The notes beneath the pieces were generated by a model that saw only the letters and a list, made by a program, of their open reading frames with translations, searched no databases and was not told where the DNA came from. A stretch of 64,000 bases of DNA from Agathobacter sp. (lineage in GTDB: Bacteria; Bacillota; Clostridia; Lachnospirales; Lachnospiraceae), in contig JALEKN010000062.1 of the NCBI GenBank assembly GCA_022769125.1, positions 1 through 64,000 on the forward strand, given 5' to 3'. Positions 24,402-33,854 of this stretch are shown here, piece after piece. Each line of letters begins with the position of its first letter. Position 1 is the first letter of the stretch. Both the position numbers and the translations under genes were made by a program.

Positions 24402-24422
24402 GGTGAGATCATTCATATAAGG

Positions 24423-24470
24423 GAAGATCGGACTGCACATGCATGCGGTTTGGTCTTCTTTTATATTTTA
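24423..24470 (+). terminator. Terminator after the HAD phosphatase gene
   Basis: GAAGATC (24423-24429) pairs with GGTCTTC (24452-24458), with an inner ACTGCA/TGCGGT stem, followed by TTTTATATTTT. Its T-rich tail overlaps the first repeat of the downstream Pho-like box. Confidence 0.8.
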
Positions 24471-24521
24471 CATGTTCTTTACATATGCAGGCCTTTTTCT
24501 TTTACATCTTCCTTGTACATT
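24467..24521 (+). promoter_or_regulatory. Pho-box-like promoter of the small alarmone synthetase unit
   Basis: TTTACA occurs at 24467, 24478 (+11) and 24501 (+23), followed after 9 nt by TACATT as a weak -10. The spacing is identical to the arrays before pstS and the Na/Pi cotransporter. In Firmicutes PhoP binds TT(T/A/C)ACA repeats with 11-bp period. Confidence 0.6.
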
Positions 24522-24551
24522 ATAGAAAAAGGAACAAAGGAGGAAGAGATT

Positions 24552-24788
24552 ATGAGCAGATTGTGGAACATGTGTGAGCACAAGACAAATGTCTTTCTTT
24601 TCTGGAATATATTAGCAGGAATGCTGTATGGCTTGTGTATATGGAGTGTAATAAGCCTGTTTGCATTAAAGAGTGTAGTATGGATGCTCTGCTTTGCAGG
24701 ATATGGAGCCTTTTTCTTCGGATTTCTGGGAGGAATCTGGTTCGTATGGGAGCATACAACAAGAAAGAGTTTGTGGGATGAAAAATAA
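24552..24788 (+). CDS. Small two-helix membrane protein
   Basis: 78 aa, not recognised as a named family. Two hydrophobic segments are clear: FLFWNILAGMLYGLCIWSVI (about 14-33) and a second, MLCFAGYGAFFFGFLGGIWF (about 43-62). Charged ends suggest both termini are cytoplasmic. ATG 24552 has GGAAGAG upstream; the ORF-track start at 24450 lies in the terminator and Pho-like promoter. It overlaps the alarmone synthetase start by 11 nt, so the two are translationally coupled and may work together at the membrane. Confidence 0.75.
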   Translation: MSRLWNMCEHKTNVFLFWNILAGMLYGLCIWSVISLFALKSVVWMLCFAGYGAFFFGFLGGIWFVWEHTTRKSLWDEK

Positions 24789-25479
24789 TAATAAAGAACA
24801 AAAAGAAGAGAAGTATGAAGAAAGAAACAGCGATACAGCAGAGTGGGATATGAGTCTTTCTCCGGAAGAATTATGGAATCTCCCGGAATTCCAGAAGGCG
24901 GGAAGCCAGGCAAGATGCAAAGTTCAGGAATATCTGATGGAATTGGATCTGCGCTATCAGGCTAAGACGGGAAATTCATTTATCCGTCTGATCGAGTCGA
25001 GAATGAAATCTATTGAAAGCATTGAACGCAAGCTCGAACGCAAAAAACTTGATGTAAATACGGAGAATATGTTGGGCAGCCTGCATGATATTTCCGGGGT
25101 TCGGGTAATCTGCTTTGATATCAAACAGATTTATTGGATTGCCCGTAAGATTGCGGATGATGGACGCTATGAGATCGTAAAGGTGAAGGATTACGTCCGC
25201 AAACCGAAAAAGAATGGTTACGAGAGTTATCATGTTGTCTGTAGGGCGCCGGTGACCGTTGAGAACAAAACGTACTTCATGGAGGTTGAAATCCAGATAC
25301 GGACGATCCTCATGGACGCATGGGCATCCCTTGATACAAAACTAAGATATAAAAAGAACGAACCTCTGCCGGATGAGATGGAGCTTCAGATCCGCAAATA
25401 TGCAAAATGGAGCCGGCGGCTGGATAAAATGGTACGTAATATTATGGAGCTTTCGCAGGAGAACGACTTTGGCAATTAG
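24778..25479 (+). CDS. Small alarmone synthetase (RelQ/YjbM-like)
   Basis: (p)ppGpp synthetase with only the RelA/SpoT synthetase domain and no HD hydrolase or TGS domain, 233 aa. The core (about 85-190) has GSLHDISGVRVICFDI, KDYVRKPKKNGYESYHVV and EVEIQIRTILMDAWASLD. The last stretch matches the conserved EIQIRT...WA motif, although the usual Glu-His after WASL is Asp-Thr here. The polar N-terminal 50 residues are Glu/Lys-rich. The start is probably ATG 24778, overlapping the membrane protein gene; its own ribosome site is weak. It is transcribed from a Pho-box-like promoter next to the pst operon. Confidence 0.88.
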   Translation: MKNNNKEQKEEKYEERNSDTAEWDMSLSPEELWNLPEFQKAGSQARCKVQEYLMELDLRYQAKTGNSFIRLIESRMKSIESIERKLERKKLDVNTENMLGSLHDISGVRVICFDIKQIYWIARKIADDGRYEIVKVKDYVRKPKKNGYESYHVVCRAPVTVENKTYFMEVEIQIRTILMDAWASLDTKLRYKKNEPLPDEMELQIRKYAKWSRRLDKMVRNIMELSQENDFGN

Positions 25480-25499
25480 CCGAAGTCGTTTTCGCTTTT
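25462..25499 (+). terminator. Terminator overlapping the alarmone synthetase stop codon
   Basis: AACGACTT (25462-25469) pairs with AAGTCGTT (25483-25490), with inner GGC/GCC around the TAG stop codon, followed by TTCGCTTTT. The stop codon sits in the loop. Confidence 0.75.
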
Positions 25500-25546: not shown

Positions 25547-25601
25547 TTCACATAGTTTTTACAGACAAATGATTTTGCACTTTACATTCGGTTGATAGGA
25601 T
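25547..25601 (+). promoter_or_regulatory. Pho-box promoter of the pst operon
   Basis: TTCACA at 25547, TTTACA at 25558 (+11) and TTTACA at 25581 (+23), then after 9 nt TAGGAT (25596-25601) as -10. This matches the direct-repeat architecture of PhoP-activated promoters and sits 76 nt before pstS. Confidence 0.75.
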
Positions 25602-25676: not shown

Positions 25677-26612
25677 ATGAAAAACAAGTTTGTGAAAATG
25701 GTAGCAACAGCAGCCGTATGTGGAATGGTTGCAGCAAGCATGGCAGGATGCCAGAGCAATGGAACAAATGACAGTGCAAATGACAACACTGCAAATGGAA
25801 CAGCAGATAACAGCGCAGCAGATAACAGCACAGATAACGGAGCTGCAGATGCAGCAACCACAGATCCGGCAGAGCTTAGCGGAACCGTTACACTTGCAGG
25901 AAGCACTTCAATGGAAAAGGTTTGTGAGGCACTTTCTGAGGCATTTATGGAGGAGTACCCGAACATCACCGTAACCGTAGAGTATACAGGATCCGGTGCA
26001 GGACTTGAGGCTCTTACAGCAGGAAGCGTAGATATCGGCGATTCTTCAAGAACATTAAAGGATGAAGAGATTGCGGCAGGTGCAGTCGAGAACATCGTGG
26101 CAATTGACGGAATTGCAGTAATTACGGATCCGGCGAACACGGTGCTTGATATCACTTCTGATGATCTTACAAAGATCTATACCGGAGAGTATACAAACTG
26201 GAGCGAACTTGGAGGAGCAGATGAAGCTATCGTAGTAATCGGACGTGAGGCTGGTTCCGGTACAAGAGGAGCATTTGAGGAGCTGTTAAAGGTTGAGGAT
26301 GCATGTGCATACGCACAGGAGCTTGATACCACAGGCGCAGTTCTTGCAAAGGTAGCATCCACGCCGGGAGCAATCGGATATGTCTCTCTTGATGTAGTAG
26401 ATGACAGCGTGAATGCGCTTGCGCTTGACGGTGTAGCAGCAACCGAAGAGAACATCTTAGCAGGCGGATACCTTCTCTCCCGTCCATTCGTAATGGCAAC
26501 AAAGGGCGAGATCGCTGACCAGAACGAGCTTGTAAAGACCTGGTTTGACTTTATCGCATCTGACGCAGGACAGACTGTAATCTCTAACGTCGGACTGATT
26601 CTCCCACAGTAA
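25677..26612 (+). CDS. pstS: Phosphate ABC transporter substrate-binding lipoprotein
   Basis: 311 aa. A lipoprotein signal (KMVATAAVCGMVAASMAGC) places it on the outer face of the membrane. A low-complexity Asn/Thr/Ala/Asp linker follows, and then the phosphate-binding PBP domain. Phosphate-loop residues are visible in TLAGSTSMEKV, YTGSGAGLEAL, DIGDSSR and REAGSGTRGAF. It delivers phosphate to PstCA. Start ATG 25677 is chosen for the AGGAGAGG upstream and the proper signal peptide. First gene of pstSCAB-phoU, behind a Pho box. Confidence 0.97.
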   Translation: MKNKFVKMVATAAVCGMVAASMAGCQSNGTNDSANDNTANGTADNSAADNSTDNGAADAATTDPAELSGTVTLAGSTSMEKVCEALSEAFMEEYPNITVTVEYTGSGAGLEALTAGSVDIGDSSRTLKDEEIAAGAVENIVAIDGIAVITDPANTVLDITSDDLTKIYTGEYTNWSELGGADEAIVVIGREAGSGTRGAFEELLKVEDACAYAQELDTTGAVLAKVASTPGAIGYVSLDVVDDSVNALALDGVAATEENILAGGYLLSRPFVMATKGEIADQNELVKTWFDFIASDAGQTVISNVGLILPQ

Positions 26613-26624
26613 AAGGAGCAAAAG

Positions 26625-27557
26625 ATGAACGAATACGCATCCATACATAGCAAAGGCGTTTCCAAGTCGGTCGTCGAACTGATTGCCAAGATTATTTTCC
26701 TGATCTGCGCCATCATCGCTATCTTTGCGGTTTGCTCCATCACAGTCTATATGTTTATGAAGGGAACCCCGGCATTGAAAAGCGTCGGGGTTACTGACTT
26801 GTTTTTCAAAACTGAATGGAAACCAACCGCAAGTGAACCGTCTTACGGAATTTTATATATTATCTTATCCTCTATCATAGGAACTGCAGCAGCAGTTGCG
26901 ATCGGTGTTCCGATCGGACTTCTCACCGCTGTATTTTTAACAGAAGTATCGAACAAGAAGCTGGCAGCGATCGTGCAGCCGGCGGTCGAACTTCTGGCAG
27001 CAATCCCATCTGTAATCTACGGATTGCTCGGACTTATGCTTTTGAATCCGTTTTTATATAAGCTGGAGAAATTGATATTCAAGGGCTCGGCAACACATCA
27101 GTTTACCGGTGGTGCAAATCTGCTCGCAGCGGTGATCGTGCTTGCTATCATGATCCTTCCGACCGTGATCAATATCAGTGCTTCCTCCATCCGTGCGGTG
27201 CCGGATTATCTGAGATCCGCATCACTCGCACTCGGAGCAACCAAGATCCAGACCATTTTTAAAGTCACGATCCCGGCGGCAAAATCCGGAATCATGACAG
27301 GCGTGGTGCTTGGTATCGGCAGGGCGCTCGGAGAGGCAATGGCAATCAATATGGTAGCTGGTGGCGCAGTCAACTTCCCGCTTCCGTTCAATTCCGTCCG
27401 TTTCCTTACCACACAGATCGTCAGTGAGATGGGATACGCCGGAGGAGTCCACAGACAGGTACTTTTTACCGTCGGACTTGTCCTCTACATATTTATTATG
27501 ATTGTCAATCTCATATTGCTGAAGATGAAGAAGAAAGGAGAGAAGGACCTTGCATAA
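26625..27557 (+). CDS. pstC: Phosphate ABC transporter permease PstC
   Basis: 310 aa membrane permease of the high-affinity phosphate importer, with six transmembrane segments. The BPD inner-membrane loop is seen in SLALGATKIQTIFKVTIPAA, followed by GIGRALGEAMAINMVAGG. AAAGGAG precedes ATG 26625, 12 nt after pstS. Its 3' end overlaps the pstA start by 8 nt. It pairs with PstA to form the channel. Confidence 0.96.
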   Translation: MNEYASIHSKGVSKSVVELIAKIIFLICAIIAIFAVCSITVYMFMKGTPALKSVGVTDLFFKTEWKPTASEPSYGILYIILSSIIGTAAAVAIGVPIGLLTAVFLTEVSNKKLAAIVQPAVELLAAIPSVIYGLLGLMLLNPFLYKLEKLIFKGSATHQFTGGANLLAAVIVLAIMILPTVINISASSIRAVPDYLRSASLALGATKIQTIFKVTIPAAKSGIMTGVVLGIGRALGEAMAINMVAGGAVNFPLPFNSVRFLTTQIVSEMGYAGGVHRQVLFTVGLVLYIFIMIVNLILLKMKKKGEKDLA

Positions 27558-28446
27558 TACAGATACAAATATAGGAACATCCCTCCAGAAAAGCAAACGG
27601 CACCCGGGCGATGTAGCATGGAACACCCTGATCTATATCTGTGCAGCATTTTCCGTTGCCCTGTTGGCAACCATCATCCTGTATGTCTGCGCGAAAGGAA
27701 TCCGCGCGGTCAACTGGAGCTTCCTTACTTCAGTAACTTCGGTGCTCCGCGGCACAGTGGGAATCGCCGGAAATATCGTAAATACGCTGTATATTATTGT
27801 CATCACGATGGTGATCGCAACACCGATCGGAGTCGGCGCAGCCGTATACTTAAATGAATACGCAAAACCGGGTAAGCTGGTTACGGTCATCGAATTTGCA
27901 ACGGAGACGCTTGCCGGAATCCCGTCCATCATCTTTGGATTGTTCGGAAGTCTGTTCTTTGGTGTGACGTTAAACATGGGATACTCATTGCTGACCGGTT
28001 CGTTTACCCTGATCCTGATGGTACTGCCCCTGATAACAAGAAATACACAGGAAGCATTAAAGACAGTTCCGGACAGCTATCGGAATGGCGCGATCGGACT
28101 AGGCACAGGAAAATGGTATATGATACGAACTATTCTTCTGCCGTCCGCAATGCCGGGAATCATAACGGGAGCGATCCTTGCAATCGGACGTATTGTAGGC
28201 GAGTCGGCAGCGCTTTTGTTTACGGCAGGAAGCGCAAAGCTTTTGCCAAAGGCACTTGACGGATATCTGAAAAAGCCGATGCAGTCCGGCGGAACACTCA
28301 CGATCCAGTTGTACTTGAGCGCGACGAGCGAGGGTGACTTTACCACAGCCTTCGGTATTGCAGTAGTTCTTCTGGTCATTGTGCTTATCATCAATCTGGC
28401 AACCAAGCGTCTCGCAGCAAAATTTGACGTACACCGCATCGATTAA
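27550..28446 (+). CDS. pstA: Phosphate ABC transporter permease PstA
   Basis: 298 aa, six transmembrane segments, partner of PstC. The coupling loop is GAIGLGTGKWYMIRTILLPS, followed by AIGRIVGESAALLFTAG. Start is a TTG at 27550 inside the pstC end, supported by GGAG about 10 nt upstream; no ATG is available close by. The overlap suggests translational coupling and equal stoichiometry of the two permeases. Confidence 0.95.
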   Translation: MHNTDTNIGTSLQKSKRHPGDVAWNTLIYICAAFSVALLATIILYVCAKGIRAVNWSFLTSVTSVLRGTVGIAGNIVNTLYIIVITMVIATPIGVGAAVYLNEYAKPGKLVTVIEFATETLAGIPSIIFGLFGSLFFGVTLNMGYSLLTGSFTLILMVLPLITRNTQEALKTVPDSYRNGAIGLGTGKWYMIRTILLPSAMPGIITGAILAIGRIVGESAALLFTAGSAKLLPKALDGYLKKPMQSGGTLTIQLYLSATSEGDFTTAFGIAVVLLVIVLIINLATKRLAAKFDVHRID

Positions 28447-28470
28447 GCAACAGAAAGCAGGGAAAGATAT

Positions 28471-29229
28471 ATGAGTGAAATTGCATTTACAGTAAAAGAT
28501 CTGCACTTGTACTACGGTGATAACCACGCGCTCAAGGGCGTGAACATGCAGATCAAGAAAAACGCCGTCACGGCGTTTATCGGACCGTCCGGATGCGGAA
28601 AGTCCACTTTTTTAAAGACGCTCAACCGCATGAATGATCTGGTAGACAATGTGCGTATTGAGGGAACCGTCCTTTTAGACGGCGAGGATATCTACGCTGA
28701 GGGCGTCGATACAACGATCCTTAGGAAAAAAGTCGGAATGGTATTCCAGCAGCCGAATCCGTTCCCAATGAGCATTTATGACAATATTGCGTATGGACCG
28801 AGAGTCCACGGAATCAAGGATAAGCGTAAACTTGACGAGATCGTGGAAGAGAGCCTGCGCGGGGCAGCAATCTTTGACGAGGTCAAGGACCGCCTGAAAA
28901 AATCAGCGCTTGGTCTGTCTGGTGGGCAGCAGCAGAGAATCTGTATCGCGCGTGCGCTTGCGGTTCAGCCGGAGGTGCTTTTGATGGATGAGCCGACTTC
29001 GGCACTTGACCCGATATCTACCTCCAAGATCGAGGATCTGATGGAGGAACTCAAGAAAAAGTATACGGTAGTCGTTGTTACACATAATATGCAGCAGGCA
29101 GTACGTGTTTCCGATGATACAGCCTTCTTCCTGGTAGGTGAGATGGTAGAATTCGGTGAGACAAAGAATGTATTCGCGTATCCGAGGGATAAGCGGACAG
29201 AAGATTATATCACAGGGAGGTTTGGTTAA
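28471..29229 (+). CDS. pstB: Phosphate ABC transporter ATP-binding protein
   Basis: 252 aa ATPase that powers PstCA. Walker A is GPSGCGKST near residue 33, the Q loop is in VFQQPNPFP, the signature [15 protein letters not shown] is the family form, Walker B is [12 protein letters not shown], and the H loop is VTHNMQQA. All catalytic residues are present. The stop overlaps the phoU start (TAATG). Confidence 0.98.
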
Positions 29230-29873
29230 TGAGATCCAAATTCGACGAGCAGCTTAATCAGCTCAATGAAGAAATGATGCGGATGGGAACCATGATCGAG
29301 GATTCCATCGAAAAAGCGATTGATGCGTTAGTCAACCAGAATGTAACACTTGCGGAAGAAATCATGGCAAGAGATGAGGAGATCGACCGCCAGCAGAAGA
29401 AGATCGAGAGCATCTGCTTTAATCTTCTGATGCAGCAGCAGCCGGTAGCACGCGATCTGCGCACCATCTCAGCGGCAATGAAGATGGTTACGGATATGGA
29501 GCGAATCGGAGATCATGCCGCAGATATTTCAGAGATCACTGTTATGCTGGGAAATCAGCCGTATCCGTTTACACTTGATCTGATCAAGAAGATGGCAACC
29601 GAGACCATGATCATGCTCATCCGAAGCATTGAGGCATATGTGGAGAAAGATATCGAGAAGGCACAGTCGGTAATAAAGCATGATGATATCATCGATGCGC
29701 TGTTTGATGAGGTAAAGCAGAAACTGATTTCCCTGATCCATGAGGCTCCGGACAACGGCGAGCAGGCAACTGATTTTCTGATGATCGCGAAGTATTTTGA
29801 GCGTATCGGCGATCATGCAACGAACATTTCCGAGTGGGTTATCTTTGCATTTAGCGCTCAAACAGAGAATTAA
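29229..29873 (+). CDS. phoU: Phosphate signalling protein PhoU
   Basis: 214 aa, all-helical, with two PhoU three-helix bundles. Each bears the metal-contacting E/DxxxD pattern, seen in DMERIGDHAADISEI and in YFERIGDHATNISEW. It restrains Pst activity and tunes PhoR signalling when phosphate is plentiful. Its ATG overlaps the pstB stop by one base. Last gene of the pst operon; a Pho-like box for the next unit follows. Confidence 0.97.
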   Translation: MRSKFDEQLNQLNEEMMRMGTMIEDSIEKAIDALVNQNVTLAEEIMARDEEIDRQQKKIESICFNLLMQQQPVARDLRTISAAMKMVTDMERIGDHAADISEITVMLGNQPYPFTLDLIKKMATETMIMLIRSIEAYVEKDIEKAQSVIKHDDIIDALFDEVKQKLISLIHEAPDNGEQATDFLMIAKYFERIGDHATNISEWVIFAFSAQTEN

Positions 29874-29892: not shown

Positions 29893-29947
29893 TTTACATA
29901 GATTTTACATAAATGTCCATGTAGATTTTACATACGGTTTGTAATAT
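29893..29947 (+). promoter_or_regulatory. Pho-box promoter of the Na/Pi cotransporter-phoPR unit
   Basis: TTTACA at 29893, 29904 (+11) and 29927 (+23), then 9 nt and TAATAT (29942-29947). All three hexamers are perfect, and the spacing equals that of the pstS and alarmone synthetase promoters. Confidence 0.75.
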
Positions 29948-29995: not shown

Positions 29996-31792
29996 ATGGA
30001 CATATTTGGTGTACTTACGTTAATCGGCGGTCTTGCAATGTTTCTGTTCGGAATGAATGTCATGGGGGATGGGCTTGCGAAGCTATCTGGTGGCAGAATG
30101 GAGCAGATCTTAGAAAAGCTGACACAGAAGCGGATTATGGCGGTATTGCTCGGTGCAGCAGTTACTGCGGTAATCCAGTCATCTTCCGCAACGACCGTTA
30201 TGGTAGTAGGCTTTGTAAATTCCGGCATCATGCAGCTTTCACAGGCAGCCGGGATTATTATGGGCGCGAATATCGGAACGACCGTAACCTCCTGGTTGCT
30301 TTCTTTGACTGGAATTGAGAGCGCCAATGTATGGGTGCAGCTCTTAAAACCGTCATCCTTTGCGCCGGTTCTTGCGGCGATCGGTATCATTTTTACGATG
30401 ACCGAGAAGGAAAATACCAAAAAGCGTGAAATCGGAAGTATCCTGCTTGGTTTTGCAGTGCTGATGTTCGGAATGGAAACGATGAGTGGTGCGGTTGCGC
30501 CACTTGCGGATGATGAGGGCTTTACAGGTATCCTTACCGCTTTTTCAAATCCGATACTTGGAATGCTTGCCGGAACAATCCTTACGGCAATCATCCAAAG
30601 TTCTTCCGCATCGGTCGGAATCCTGCAGGCACTGTGTGTCACCGGTGCAGTAAGCTATGCAACGGCACTCCCGATCATCATGGGACAGAATATTGGAACG
30701 TGTGTGACAGCGATTATTTCCTCAATCGGAGCGAGTAAGAATGCAAAACGTGCATCCATGGTGCATCTGTTTTTCAACCTGATCGGAACGATCCTGTTCA
30801 TGGTCGTATTCTATACGCTCAACAGCTTTGTACACTTTGCATTTTTGGGAGAATCGGCAAAAGCTGCGGGAATCGCCGTGATCCACAGTCTGTTCAATAT
30901 CGGCTGTACGATCGTGCTCTTTCCGTTTGCAAAGCAATTGGAGAAGCTTGCAACGCTTGCTATCCCGGAGCATATCGGGAACCACACCGAGGAGAAAAGG
31001 GAAAGTGCCCCGATCCTCGACGAGCGTTTCCTGGAGCAGCCGGGATTTGCGATTGAGCTGTGCAAGAATGCGGCCATAGACATGGGCTACAAGGCCAAAG
31101 ATGCAATTTCGCTTGCGCTTACCTGCATACAGGATTATTCTAGAGAAAAGCGGGATCGGGTGATCGCGCTGGAGCAGGAGATCGACCATTACGAGGATGT
31201 GCTCGGAAGTTATCTTGTCAAGTTAAGCAGCAAGGATCTATCCCAGAAGGACAGCCGGACACTTTCTGTTCTTTTGCACTGCATCAGCGACTATGAGCGG
31301 ATCTCGGACCATGCGATCAACATCACGGATTCCATTGACGAGATGAGGGAGCGTGACCTGAAATTCTCGGATCGGGCAGAGGAAGAACTTGGTGTATACA
31401 TGCATGCGGTCAATGATATTGTTGATCGGACGGTGGATGTGTTCAAACGGTGGGATCTGGACGATGCCAGGCACATCGAGCCTTTGGAGCAGGTTATTGA
31501 CGAACTGAATCTGCAGCTTCGCCAGCGCCATATCAAGCGGCTGCGCAAGGGTAAATGTACGATTGAACTTGGATTGATCCTTGAAGACATCATAAGAAAT
31601 ATGGAGCGTGTCGCAGATCATTGCTCCAATGTTGCGGTCTGTATGATCGAGGTCAGTGTGGATGAGTTTGATACCCACGAATATCTTGAAGAACTGACAA
31701 CAGAAGAAAATTATGCATTTCATCAGGAAGTTGGGGTACTCAGAGAGAAGTATCTGCTTCCGGAGAAAATAAAAAAAGAAAAGAGTAGGTAG
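29996..31792 (+). CDS. Na/Pi cotransporter with C-terminal PhoU-like domain
   Basis: 598 aa. The membrane part (about 1-310) holds two NptA/PF02690 repeats, each with the QSSSA signature (QSSSATTVMVVGFVNSG and QSSSASVGILQAL). The cytoplasmic part (about 345-590) is PhoU-like, with ISDYERISDHAINITDS and NMERVADHCSNVAVC. It imports phosphate with sodium, or may balance phosphate flux together with Pst. GGAG precedes ATG 29996. phoP follows after 3 nt, so transporter, regulator and kinase form one Pho-responsive operon. Confidence 0.94.
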   Translation: MDIFGVLTLIGGLAMFLFGMNVMGDGLAKLSGGRMEQILEKLTQKRIMAVLLGAAVTAVIQSSSATTVMVVGFVNSGIMQLSQAAGIIMGANIGTTVTSWLLSLTGIESANVWVQLLKPSSFAPVLAAIGIIFTMTEKENTKKREIGSILLGFAVLMFGMETMSGAVAPLADDEGFTGILTAFSNPILGMLAGTILTAIIQSSSASVGILQALCVTGAVSYATALPIIMGQNIGTCVTAIISSIGASKNAKRASMVHLFFNLIGTILFMVVFYTLNSFVHFAFLGESAKAAGIAVIHSLFNIGCTIVLFPFAKQLEKLATLAIPEHIGNHTEEKRESAPILDERFLEQPGFAIELCKNAAIDMGYKAKDAISLALTCIQDYSREKRDRVIALEQEIDHYEDVLGSYLVKLSSKDLSQKDSRTLSVLLHCISDYERISDHAINITDSIDEMRERDLKFSDRAEEELGVYMHAVNDIVDRTVDVFKRWDLDDARHIEPLEQVIDELNLQLRQRHIKRLRKGKCTIELGLILEDIIRNMERVADHCSNVAVCMIEVSVDEFDTHEYLEELTTEENYAFHQEVGVLREKYLLPEKIKKEKSR

Positions 31793-31795
31793 AAG

Positions 31796-32464
31796 ATGGC
31801 ACTGATATATATTGTCGAGGATGACGAGAGCATCCGCGAGATCGAGACGATCGCATTAAAAAATAGCAATTATATGGTCTATGCGTTTGAAAAGGCAAAA
31901 GACTTTTACCGAAAGCTGGATGAGATCGTACCGGATCTTGTACTGCTTGACATCATGCTTCCGGACGAAAATGGATATGATATAGTGAAGAAGCTTCGTA
32001 AGAACCCGGCAACCAAACGACTGCCGATCATCATGGTGACGGCAAAATCAACCGAGATGGATATGATCAAGGGTTTAGATGACGGTGCGGATGATTATAT
32101 CAAGAAGCCGTTTTCTGTTATGGAGCTGATCACCAGGGTAAAGGCGCTGCTTCGGAGAACAGAAGGGGAAGAAGTCAAGTTCCATGTACTCGATAACATT
32201 ATGATGGATCATGAACGTCATATGGTATACGTATCGGAGAAACCGGTGGAGCTTACCTTTAAAGAGTATGAACTTCTGCGTTTTTTGATGACAAACCAGA
32301 ATGTGGTATTGTCACGCGAGACGATCATGCGTCATGTCTGGGGTACGGATTTTGAGGGTGAGTCAAGAACCGTAGATGTACATATCAAAACCCTGCGGCA
32401 GAAGCTTGGGGAAGGTGGTAATCATATCCGGACCGTCCGCAATGTCGGATATGTGATTGAATAG
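31796..32464 (+). CDS. phoP: Response regulator of the Pho system
   Basis: 222 aa OmpR-family regulator. Receiver: VEDDESI, phospho-acceptor Asp in DLVLLDIMLPDENG, TAKS and KKPF. The winged-helix domain contains MRHVWGTDFEGESRTVDVHI and TVRNVGYVIE. The assignment as PhoP/PhoB rests on its position in a Pho-box operon with phosphate transporters and on the adjacent kinase. It is the likely binder of the three TTTACA arrays. Confidence 0.9.
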   Translation: MALIYIVEDDESIREIETIALKNSNYMVYAFEKAKDFYRKLDEIVPDLVLLDIMLPDENGYDIVKKLRKNPATKRLPIIMVTAKSTEMDMIKGLDDGADDYIKKPFSVMELITRVKALLRRTEGEEVKFHVLDNIMMDHERHMVYVSEKPVELTFKEYELLRFLMTNQNVVLSRETIMRHVWGTDFEGESRTVDVHIKTLRQKLGEGGNHIRTVRNVGYVIE

Positions 32465-32510: not shown

Positions 32511-33854
32511 ATGAAGAAAAAGATCAATTCAAGACTGATTGCGATCGCTGTACTTGCCGTTGTGGCGACCGCGCTTGGCATTACGATGATCTACTACGGA
32601 CTTTTTCAAAGACAGGTGCAGTCGGATCTGCAGATGTGTGCGGAGGCTCTTCGCGACACAGGGATCTTCCAGAAGGAGAACAGGCAGACGATACTTGCCA
32701 ATTATACAAACAGCCAATCACAGCAGAACTCGATACCGGATCTGCGTATCACCTGGGTGGATTCCGATGGCACGGTTCTCTACGATAAGGATATGAATGC
32801 TGCGAAGATGGAGAACCATGCAGACCGTCCGGAAATCCGCGATGCGTTTGAGAACGGAACGGGGGCGATCGTGCGGGAGTCGGACACGATGAATATGAGT
32901 ACCTTTTACTATGCGATTCGTCTGAAGGATGGAACGGTACTTCGTGTTTCTACCGAGGCGCGCAGCATGGTGAGTGTGTTCGTGACCGTCGCACCGGCGA
33001 TTGCCCTGATCCTTGCAGTCATTATTGTCGTGTGTGTATTTCTGGCACACTTACTGACCAAACAGCTATTGCAACCGATCGAGAAAATGGCACAGAATCT
33101 GGAGGACACCTCCGATGGAGCGGAATACAAGGAGCTGGTTCCGTTTATGAATACTATACGGATGCAGCATGAGAATATCCTTGCGGCAGCGAAAAGCCGT
33201 CAGGATTTTACAGCGAATGTGTCTCACGAATTAAAGACTCCGCTTACGGCAATTTCTGGGTATGCGGAGTTGATTGAAAATCATATGGTGGATGTTTCTC
33301 AGGAAGAACATATTGCCAAGGAAATCCGCAGAAATGCGGATCGCCTTGTCACTCTTATTAATGATATCATACGTTTATCGGAGCTTGATCACAGCCAGGA
33401 ACAGCAGGGATTTGAACTGTTGGATCTGTATGAGGTTGCTTCGGAGTGTACGGAAGCACTTGTAATGAACGCCCAGAAGCGCAATATCAGCCTCACCCTT
33501 ACCGGAACCTCCTGCATGGTGCGTGCAAACCGGGAGATGATACGGGAGCTTATGGATAATCTTTGCCAGAATGCAATCCGCTATAATAATGAGGGTGGTT
33601 ATGTTCATGTGACGATTGCAAAGGAAAATGACAAACCAATGCTGATTGTACAGGACAATGGAATCGGTATTCCGAAGAACCAGCAGGAGCGTGTGTTCGA
33701 ACGTTTCTATCGTGTAGACAAGAGCCGCTCAAGGGAGACCGGGGGAACGGGACTCGGACTTGCAATCGTAAAGCATATCGTAGAGCTGCATGATGCGAAA
33801 CTCTATCTTGACAGTGAGGTTGGAGAAGGAACGACAATCCGCGTTGAATTTTAA
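32511..33854 (+). CDS. phoR: Sensor histidine kinase of the Pho system
   Basis: 447 aa. TM1 at about 9-30, a short extracytoplasmic domain (31-160), TM2 at about 163-187, a HAMP-like linker, HisKA with the phospho-His in ANVSHELKTPLTAISGYAEL, and HATPase_c with NLCQNAIRYN, DNGIGIP and GTGLGLAIVKHI. No obvious PAS domain lies between TM2 and HisKA, so it is simpler than B. subtilis PhoR. It begins 46 nt after phoP. PhoU and the Pst complex are the expected inputs. Confidence 0.9.
   Translation: MKKKINSRLIAIAVLAVVATALGITMIYYGLFQRQVQSDLQMCAEALRDTGIFQKENRQTILANYTNSQSQQNSIPDLRITWVDSDGTVLYDKDMNAAKMENHADRPEIRDAFENGTGAIVRESDTMNMSTFYYAIRLKDGTVLRVSTEARSMVSVFVTVAPAIALILAVIIVVCVFLAHLLTKQLLQPIEKMAQNLEDTSDGAEYKELVPFMNTIRMQHENILAAAKSRQDFTANVSHELKTPLTAISGYAELIENHMVDVSQEEHIAKEIRRNADRLVTLINDIIRLSELDHSQEQQGFELLDLYEVASECTEALVMNAQKRNISLTLTGTSCMVRANREMIRELMDNLCQNAIRYNNEGGYVHVTIAKENDKPMLIVQDNGIGIPKNQQERVFERFYRVDKSRSRETGGTGLGLAIVKHIVELHDAKLYLDSEVGEGTTIRVEF

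Follow-up and report, generated by a model that had tools for sequence, protein, structure and literature searches.

The 64-kb window, which is the whole stretch of DNA analysed here, carries on its forward strand a gene for a small alarmone synthetase (SAS) next to a group of phosphate genes. The SAS unit begins with a promoter-like array (24467..24521, +), in which TTTACA occurs at 24467, 24478 and 24501 and a -10-like TACATT at 24516. The array is followed by TM78 (24552..24788, +), a membrane protein of 78 aa that has no Pfam match and shows the family motif GY-x5-G-x2-GG, and by the SAS gene itself (24778..25479, +; 233 aa). The two genes overlap by 11 nt, as the first-pass annotation of this DNA had claimed. 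An intrinsic terminator-like hairpin, also seen in the terminator scan, lies upstream of the unit (24415..24466, +; -28.3 kcal/mol, z -9.2), with its T-run abutting the SAS array, and another lies at the end of the unit before the pstS promoter (25459..25493, +; -24.4 kcal/mol, z -6.3). The TM78-SAS unit is thus bracketed by terminator-like structures, and the upstream hairpin may isolate it from the HAD gene that precedes it. Behind the unit, a second array (25547..25601, +) precedes pstS (25677..26612, +; TIGR02136 above cut-off), pstC, pstA and pstB (26625..29229, +; assigned by position and as homologues of the relatives' pst genes) and phoU (29229..29873, +; TIGR02135 above cut-off). A third array (29893..29947, +) precedes a Na/Pi cotransporter with PhoU domains (29996..31792, +; Pfam Na_Pi_cotrans and PhoU, TIGR00704), which is followed by phoP and phoR. 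phoP (31796..32464, +) encodes an OmpR-family response regulator whose best NCBIfam match is PhoB, below the cut-off, and whose closest PDB chain is RegX3. phoR (32511..33854, +) encodes a sensor kinase with best NCBIfam matches to PnpS and PhoR, also below the cut-off. The phoP product is presumed to be the activator of the arrays.

The three arrays share the layout TTNACA-N5-TTNACA-N17-TTNACA-N9-TANNNT, and in each of them the hexamers stand at 0, +11 and +34 and TANNNT at +49. The SAS unit is therefore preceded by direct repeats of the TTNACA type in helical register. The first-pass annotation had placed arrays at 24467, 25547 (with TTCACA as the first hexamer) and 29893, and all three read exactly so. 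Its offset of +11 was also correct; its "+23" is the distance between the second hexamer and the third, which itself lies at +34. The repeats that it described are present, but the plain 11-bp period is replaced by steps of 11 and 23 with a degenerate middle register. When up to three mismatches were allowed, the window contained these three matches only, against 0.03 expected. The genome scan that had been proposed as a check returned the same three matches in 2.75 Mb at up to one mismatch, and the reversed control gave 0; this genome-wide search was a pattern scan, and matrix scoring was applied to the window and to selected loci. The last repeat lies 9 nt before the -10 element and seems to replace a -35 element, which would fit an activator-dependent promoter. 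The promoters of the window were missed by simple sigma-70 scans, as is expected if they depend on an activator.

A direct-repeat array alone does not identify its regulator. The same geometry, with at most one mismatch, was found in 97 of 299 Lachnospiraceae genomes, and the backwards pattern gave 1 site. Nearly every genome of this set represents a separate genus and many are incomplete MAGs; a missing array site says little in a draft genome. At 125 sites, the first recognised gene downstream was pstS (61), the Na/Pi cotransporter gene (20), phoP (5), pstB (4), phoU (1), ppx (1) or ppk (1), so that classical phosphate genes account for 93 of 125. A TM78-like protein came first at another 10 sites, and phosphoesterase-like ORFs, judged by eye, came first at several of the remaining ones. 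The logo of 162 non-redundant sites consists of three hexamers and a TANNAT hexamer; its middle register is weak, with G at +24 in 64%. Judged by the genes that it precedes, in this genome and across the lineage, the array geometry is a Lachnospiraceae-wide Pho promoter, and the earlier claim of a Pho-type promoter before the SAS unit gains support from this census. PhoP boxes of B. subtilis are TT[ACT]A[CT]A repeats with a period of about 11 bp. The arrays resemble them in the hexamer and in the head-to-tail repeat, but they differ in the fixed 11 + 23 spacing, the degenerate middle register and the -10 element exactly 9 nt past the last box.

The array might instead be bound by another OmpR-type regulator, for example WalR. 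The WalR box is TGTWAH-N5-TGTWAH, and on the opposite strand it resembles TTTACA-N5-TTTACA. The B. subtilis sasA promoter is bound and repressed by WalR (PMC6853874). However, the three-box geometry precedes pst, Na/Pi, phoU, phoP and ppx/ppk genes at the 93 sites, and phosphate genes, not the cell-wall metabolism genes of a WalR regulon, dominate the census. The two-hexamer core alone also occurs in the genome at about background frequency (34 against 26 in the control), which indicates that the full geometry is needed. We consider control by WalR or a similar regulator very unlikely and read the array as a Pho-type promoter.

The SAS contains a RelA_SpoT synthetase domain only (PF04607 alone, without hydrolase, TGS or ACT domains). 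The catalytic residues (R-x-K-x3-S, D and R of DISGVR, KDY, NGYxSYH and E-x-Q-x-RT) are present in it and in all of its orthologues, and these motifs align with those of YwaC and YjbM. With its intact synthetase domain, the protein is predicted to make (pp)pGpp. Among proteins of solved structure, YwaC/RelP and YjbM/RelQ are the closest to it, and it shares with RelP and RelQ (SasA, SasB) the single-domain architecture and the catalytic motifs. Its clade (14 rows, support 100) differs from them in falling outside both reference branches, in a midpoint-rooted tree made with a quick method and containing some long branches. Against the YjbM model NF053588 the SAS scored 118, with a cut-off of 320. 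On both counts it stands apart from the RelQ and RelP subfamilies. The genome inventory lists one long Rel beside four genes of the SAS type.

Orthologues of the SAS were delimited by a gap in score (at least 294 bits against at most 186 bits) and were found in 13 of 62 genomes of the genus and in one further MAG, giving 14 loci. In about half of these loci, array-less ones included, the immediate neighbour of the SAS gene is a NUDIX hydrolase gene (PF00293; L006:811-1362, L035, L037, L039, L151, L007 and L042, and, at the opposite side, L038). Degradation of (p)ppGpp is an activity of some NUDIX enzymes.

A weight matrix was trained on 109 sites from other genera only, with SAS-downstream loci excluded; the training sites were chosen by the same geometry, and its scores therefore measure likeness to this geometry, not binding. 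In the window, the matrix exceeded 5 bits only at the arrays before the Na/Pi gene (53.1 bits), pstS (44.0 bits) and the SAS unit (36.3 bits), of which the last is the weakest. The maximum over 20 million random positions of matched dinucleotide content was 12.3 bits, and 0 positions reached 15 bits. Control loci of other bacteria, 1.09 Mb in all, gave no match above 8 bits. At C46, a site of direct repeats did not score with the Pho matrix and was rejected.

The results showed that an upstream array of 24.6-42.9 bits is present at 11 of the 14 SAS loci. The exceptions are G035, which has a degenerate array of 10.1 bits, and G003 and Lachnobacterium bovis, where no upstream array was detected by the matrix. 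The 500 nt upstream of 34 other SAS genes scored at most 1.1 bits each. The comparison of relatives that the first-pass annotation had suggested thus came out in its favour, and mostly at loci distant from pst. Only one of the ten named SAS loci with flanks has pst nearby, which indicates that the array travels with the SAS gene. This bears on the idea that the SAS array is a copy of the adjacent pst promoter, made by local rearrangement and with no selected role for the SAS. The SAS does lie inside a pst/Na-Pi neighbourhood in the window and in G016, but relatives with their pst genes elsewhere retain the array before the SAS gene, and a second SAS clade, described below, is likewise linked to Pho sites. 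A mere promoter copy is hardly credible to us, and a conserved promoter of the SAS gene is the reading that we keep. At the G010 locus (L220:2305-2400), the SAS Pho array and a terminator-like hairpin overlap, and the -10 region lies within the hairpin. Two further matrix matches near SAS orthologues (L034:10369 and L041:1759) precede two plausible Pho genes, one for a purple acid phosphatase-like protein and the other for an ABC permease of sugar/glycerol-phosphate type.

TM78 homologues were found in 38 of the 299 genomes with a profile built from seven members. Among the matches listed, a Pho site above 8 bits lay just upstream of the homologue at 25 of 30 loci, and at 19 of 24 when the profile-source genomes were left out. 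Most homologues stand without SAS, in many genera, behind Pho arrays. TM78 accompanies the SAS at only 2 of the 14 orthologous loci, those of the window and G016, which indicates that it is not a fixed SAS partner. The earlier view of the membrane protein as a companion of the SAS therefore applies to the overlapping genes of the window but not to the SAS clade in general. toxSAS systems are known (PMC11559606), and the overlap could also mark a toxin-antitoxin pair of this kind, in which a membrane antitoxin counteracts a toxic SAS; the Pho array would then be incidental. This is highly improbable, as 12 of the 14 loci lack TM78, its homologues are mostly SAS-free yet lie behind Pho arrays, and no adjacent gene is conserved as an antitoxin would be, the NUDIX gene adjoining only about half of the loci. 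From its gene contexts, TM78 is a Pho-associated small membrane protein family, undescribed and without a Pfam entry, which appears to be Pho-associated in its own right and to have no obligatory SAS partner. The proteins of this family have about 80-110 aa and are usually encoded by the first gene after a Pho array, in some cases with pstS or Na/Pi-phoPR downstream (window 24552-24788; L224, L233, L241, L288, L323, L326, L336 and L343-L371). An AlphaFold model of TM78 was set aside as a low-confidence single helix (pLDDT 70, pTM 0.33).

We believe, with a probability of roughly 0.8, that TM78-SAS belongs to the PhoPR regulon as a self-contained transcription unit, which is activated by PhoP at low phosphate and whose SAS raises (p)ppGpp/pGpp. 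What the sequence shows is the array with its likeness to other Pho promoters, the conservation of this array before the SAS gene, the flanking terminators and the intact synthetase domain. From there we infer that PhoP binds, that it activates and does not repress, that the enzyme is active and what physiological purpose the unit serves. At low phosphate, PhoP~P would occupy the TTTACA repeats of the SAS array, the last of which would substitute for the -35 element, and would switch on TM78-SAS together with pst and Na/Pi-phoPR. The added SAS would lift (p)ppGpp or pGpp without a ribosome signal. The raised alarmone would then lower GTP and rRNA synthesis and with them the phosphorus demand, so that the SAS may cut demand while pst and Na/Pi increase supply. 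Much of the phosphorus of a cell is in ribosomes, so lower rRNA synthesis would mean a smaller demand. In Firmicutes, (p)ppGpp lowers GTP and rRNA synthesis (PMC10117726).

Part of such a circuit is already known from other bacteria. In E. coli, YtfK, a member of the PhoB regulon, activates SpoT and raises (p)ppGpp in phosphate starvation (PMC6917717). The circuit proposed for the window resembles this case in that a Pho-regulon gene would raise (p)ppGpp under phosphate starvation. However, YtfK, which is specific to gamma-proteobacteria, acts as a small activator on the long RSH SpoT, whereas in the window the Pho-type promoter belongs to the synthetase gene itself. Control of SAS genes by two-component regulators has also been described, namely of S. 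aureus relP/relQ by VraRS and of B. subtilis sasA (relP) by WalRK (PMC10117726, PMC6853874). These systems share with the SAS of the window the response-regulator control that is predicted for it, but their inputs are cell-wall stress, and the promoter here is of the phosphate type. A review from 2023 on (p)ppGpp in Firmicutes (PMC10117726) never uses the word "phosphate", and no direct Pho promoter on an alarmone synthetase was found in the literature searched, mostly without subscription papers. With two-component control of SAS and a Pho route to (p)ppGpp through YtfK and SpoT known, the Pho promoter on the synthetase itself would be new. How phosphate limitation leads to (p)ppGpp is an open question, to which the E. 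coli answer, a Pho-controlled SpoT activator, is indirect. The circuit proposed here is simple and testable: a phosphate sensor would be joined to a growth brake, and phosphate exhaustion should trigger this brake directly. Species with the array and species that lost it before the SAS offer a natural comparison.

The link between Pho sites and SAS is not confined to this clade. A SAS of a second clade ends the series Pho array, GDPD, alpha/beta hydrolase, Atg22-like MFS and SAS in six further genomes of the genus (L203:938-6939 in G006; also L204, L205, L206, L214 and L215). A polyphosphate kinase gene follows the SAS wherever the contig continues, and in four of the six loci a second Pho array with pstS comes directly after. 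Other members of this clade have the SAS just upstream of the pst array. The operon may unite alarmone and polyphosphate synthesis under phosphate control. It could be argued from this arrangement in sister species, where a Pho-array operon has polyphosphate kinase immediately after a related SAS, that PhoP controls the unit of the window but that its product serves, for example, polyphosphate accumulation and not a ribosome-sparing stringent response. We hold this to be unlikely, since ppk is not adjacent to the SAS of the window and the lowering of GTP and rRNA transcription by (p)ppGpp is a general Firmicute effect (PMC10117726). A ribosome-sparing response remains our preferred reading. 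The data make it fairly probable that Lachnospiraceae have a phosphate-dedicated alarmone branch, in which a SAS clade outside RelP/RelQ and at least one RelQ-like SAS are under PhoP, either with their own promoter or in operons with polyphosphate kinase and glycerophosphodiester scavenging. Starvation would then set (p)ppGpp transcriptionally, and the TM78 family would be a further part. These gut anaerobes have a Pho promoter on a synthetase gene, and a related synthetase is paired with polyphosphate kinase.

Several other arrangements were found, and those of G181, G329, G236, G106 and G095 belong to other genera. In G181 an array of 48.9 bits lies directly before the SAS gene, and a HAD phosphatase gene is next (L309:301-1767). 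The order is array, Na/Pi and SAS in G329, and SAS and pstS in G236. In G106 the array is followed by pstB and phoU and then by a short ppk-like ORF and a short SAS-like ORF, and in G095 a Pho site (26.9 bits) precedes an apparently split pstS-like gene and an overlapping SAS. In the tree, the G329 SAS joins RelQ (99) and the other placed SAS fall with or near the ppk clade, which indicates, within the limits of a midpoint-rooted, quick-method tree, that SAS entered Pho units at least twice. In G267 (L317:301-5448), a Pho array is followed by genes for a small membrane protein, a PhoH/PIN protein, an HD-domain protein, a SAS and an EAL-GGDEF-CBS protein, a run that joins genes of alarmone and cyclic-di-GMP type.
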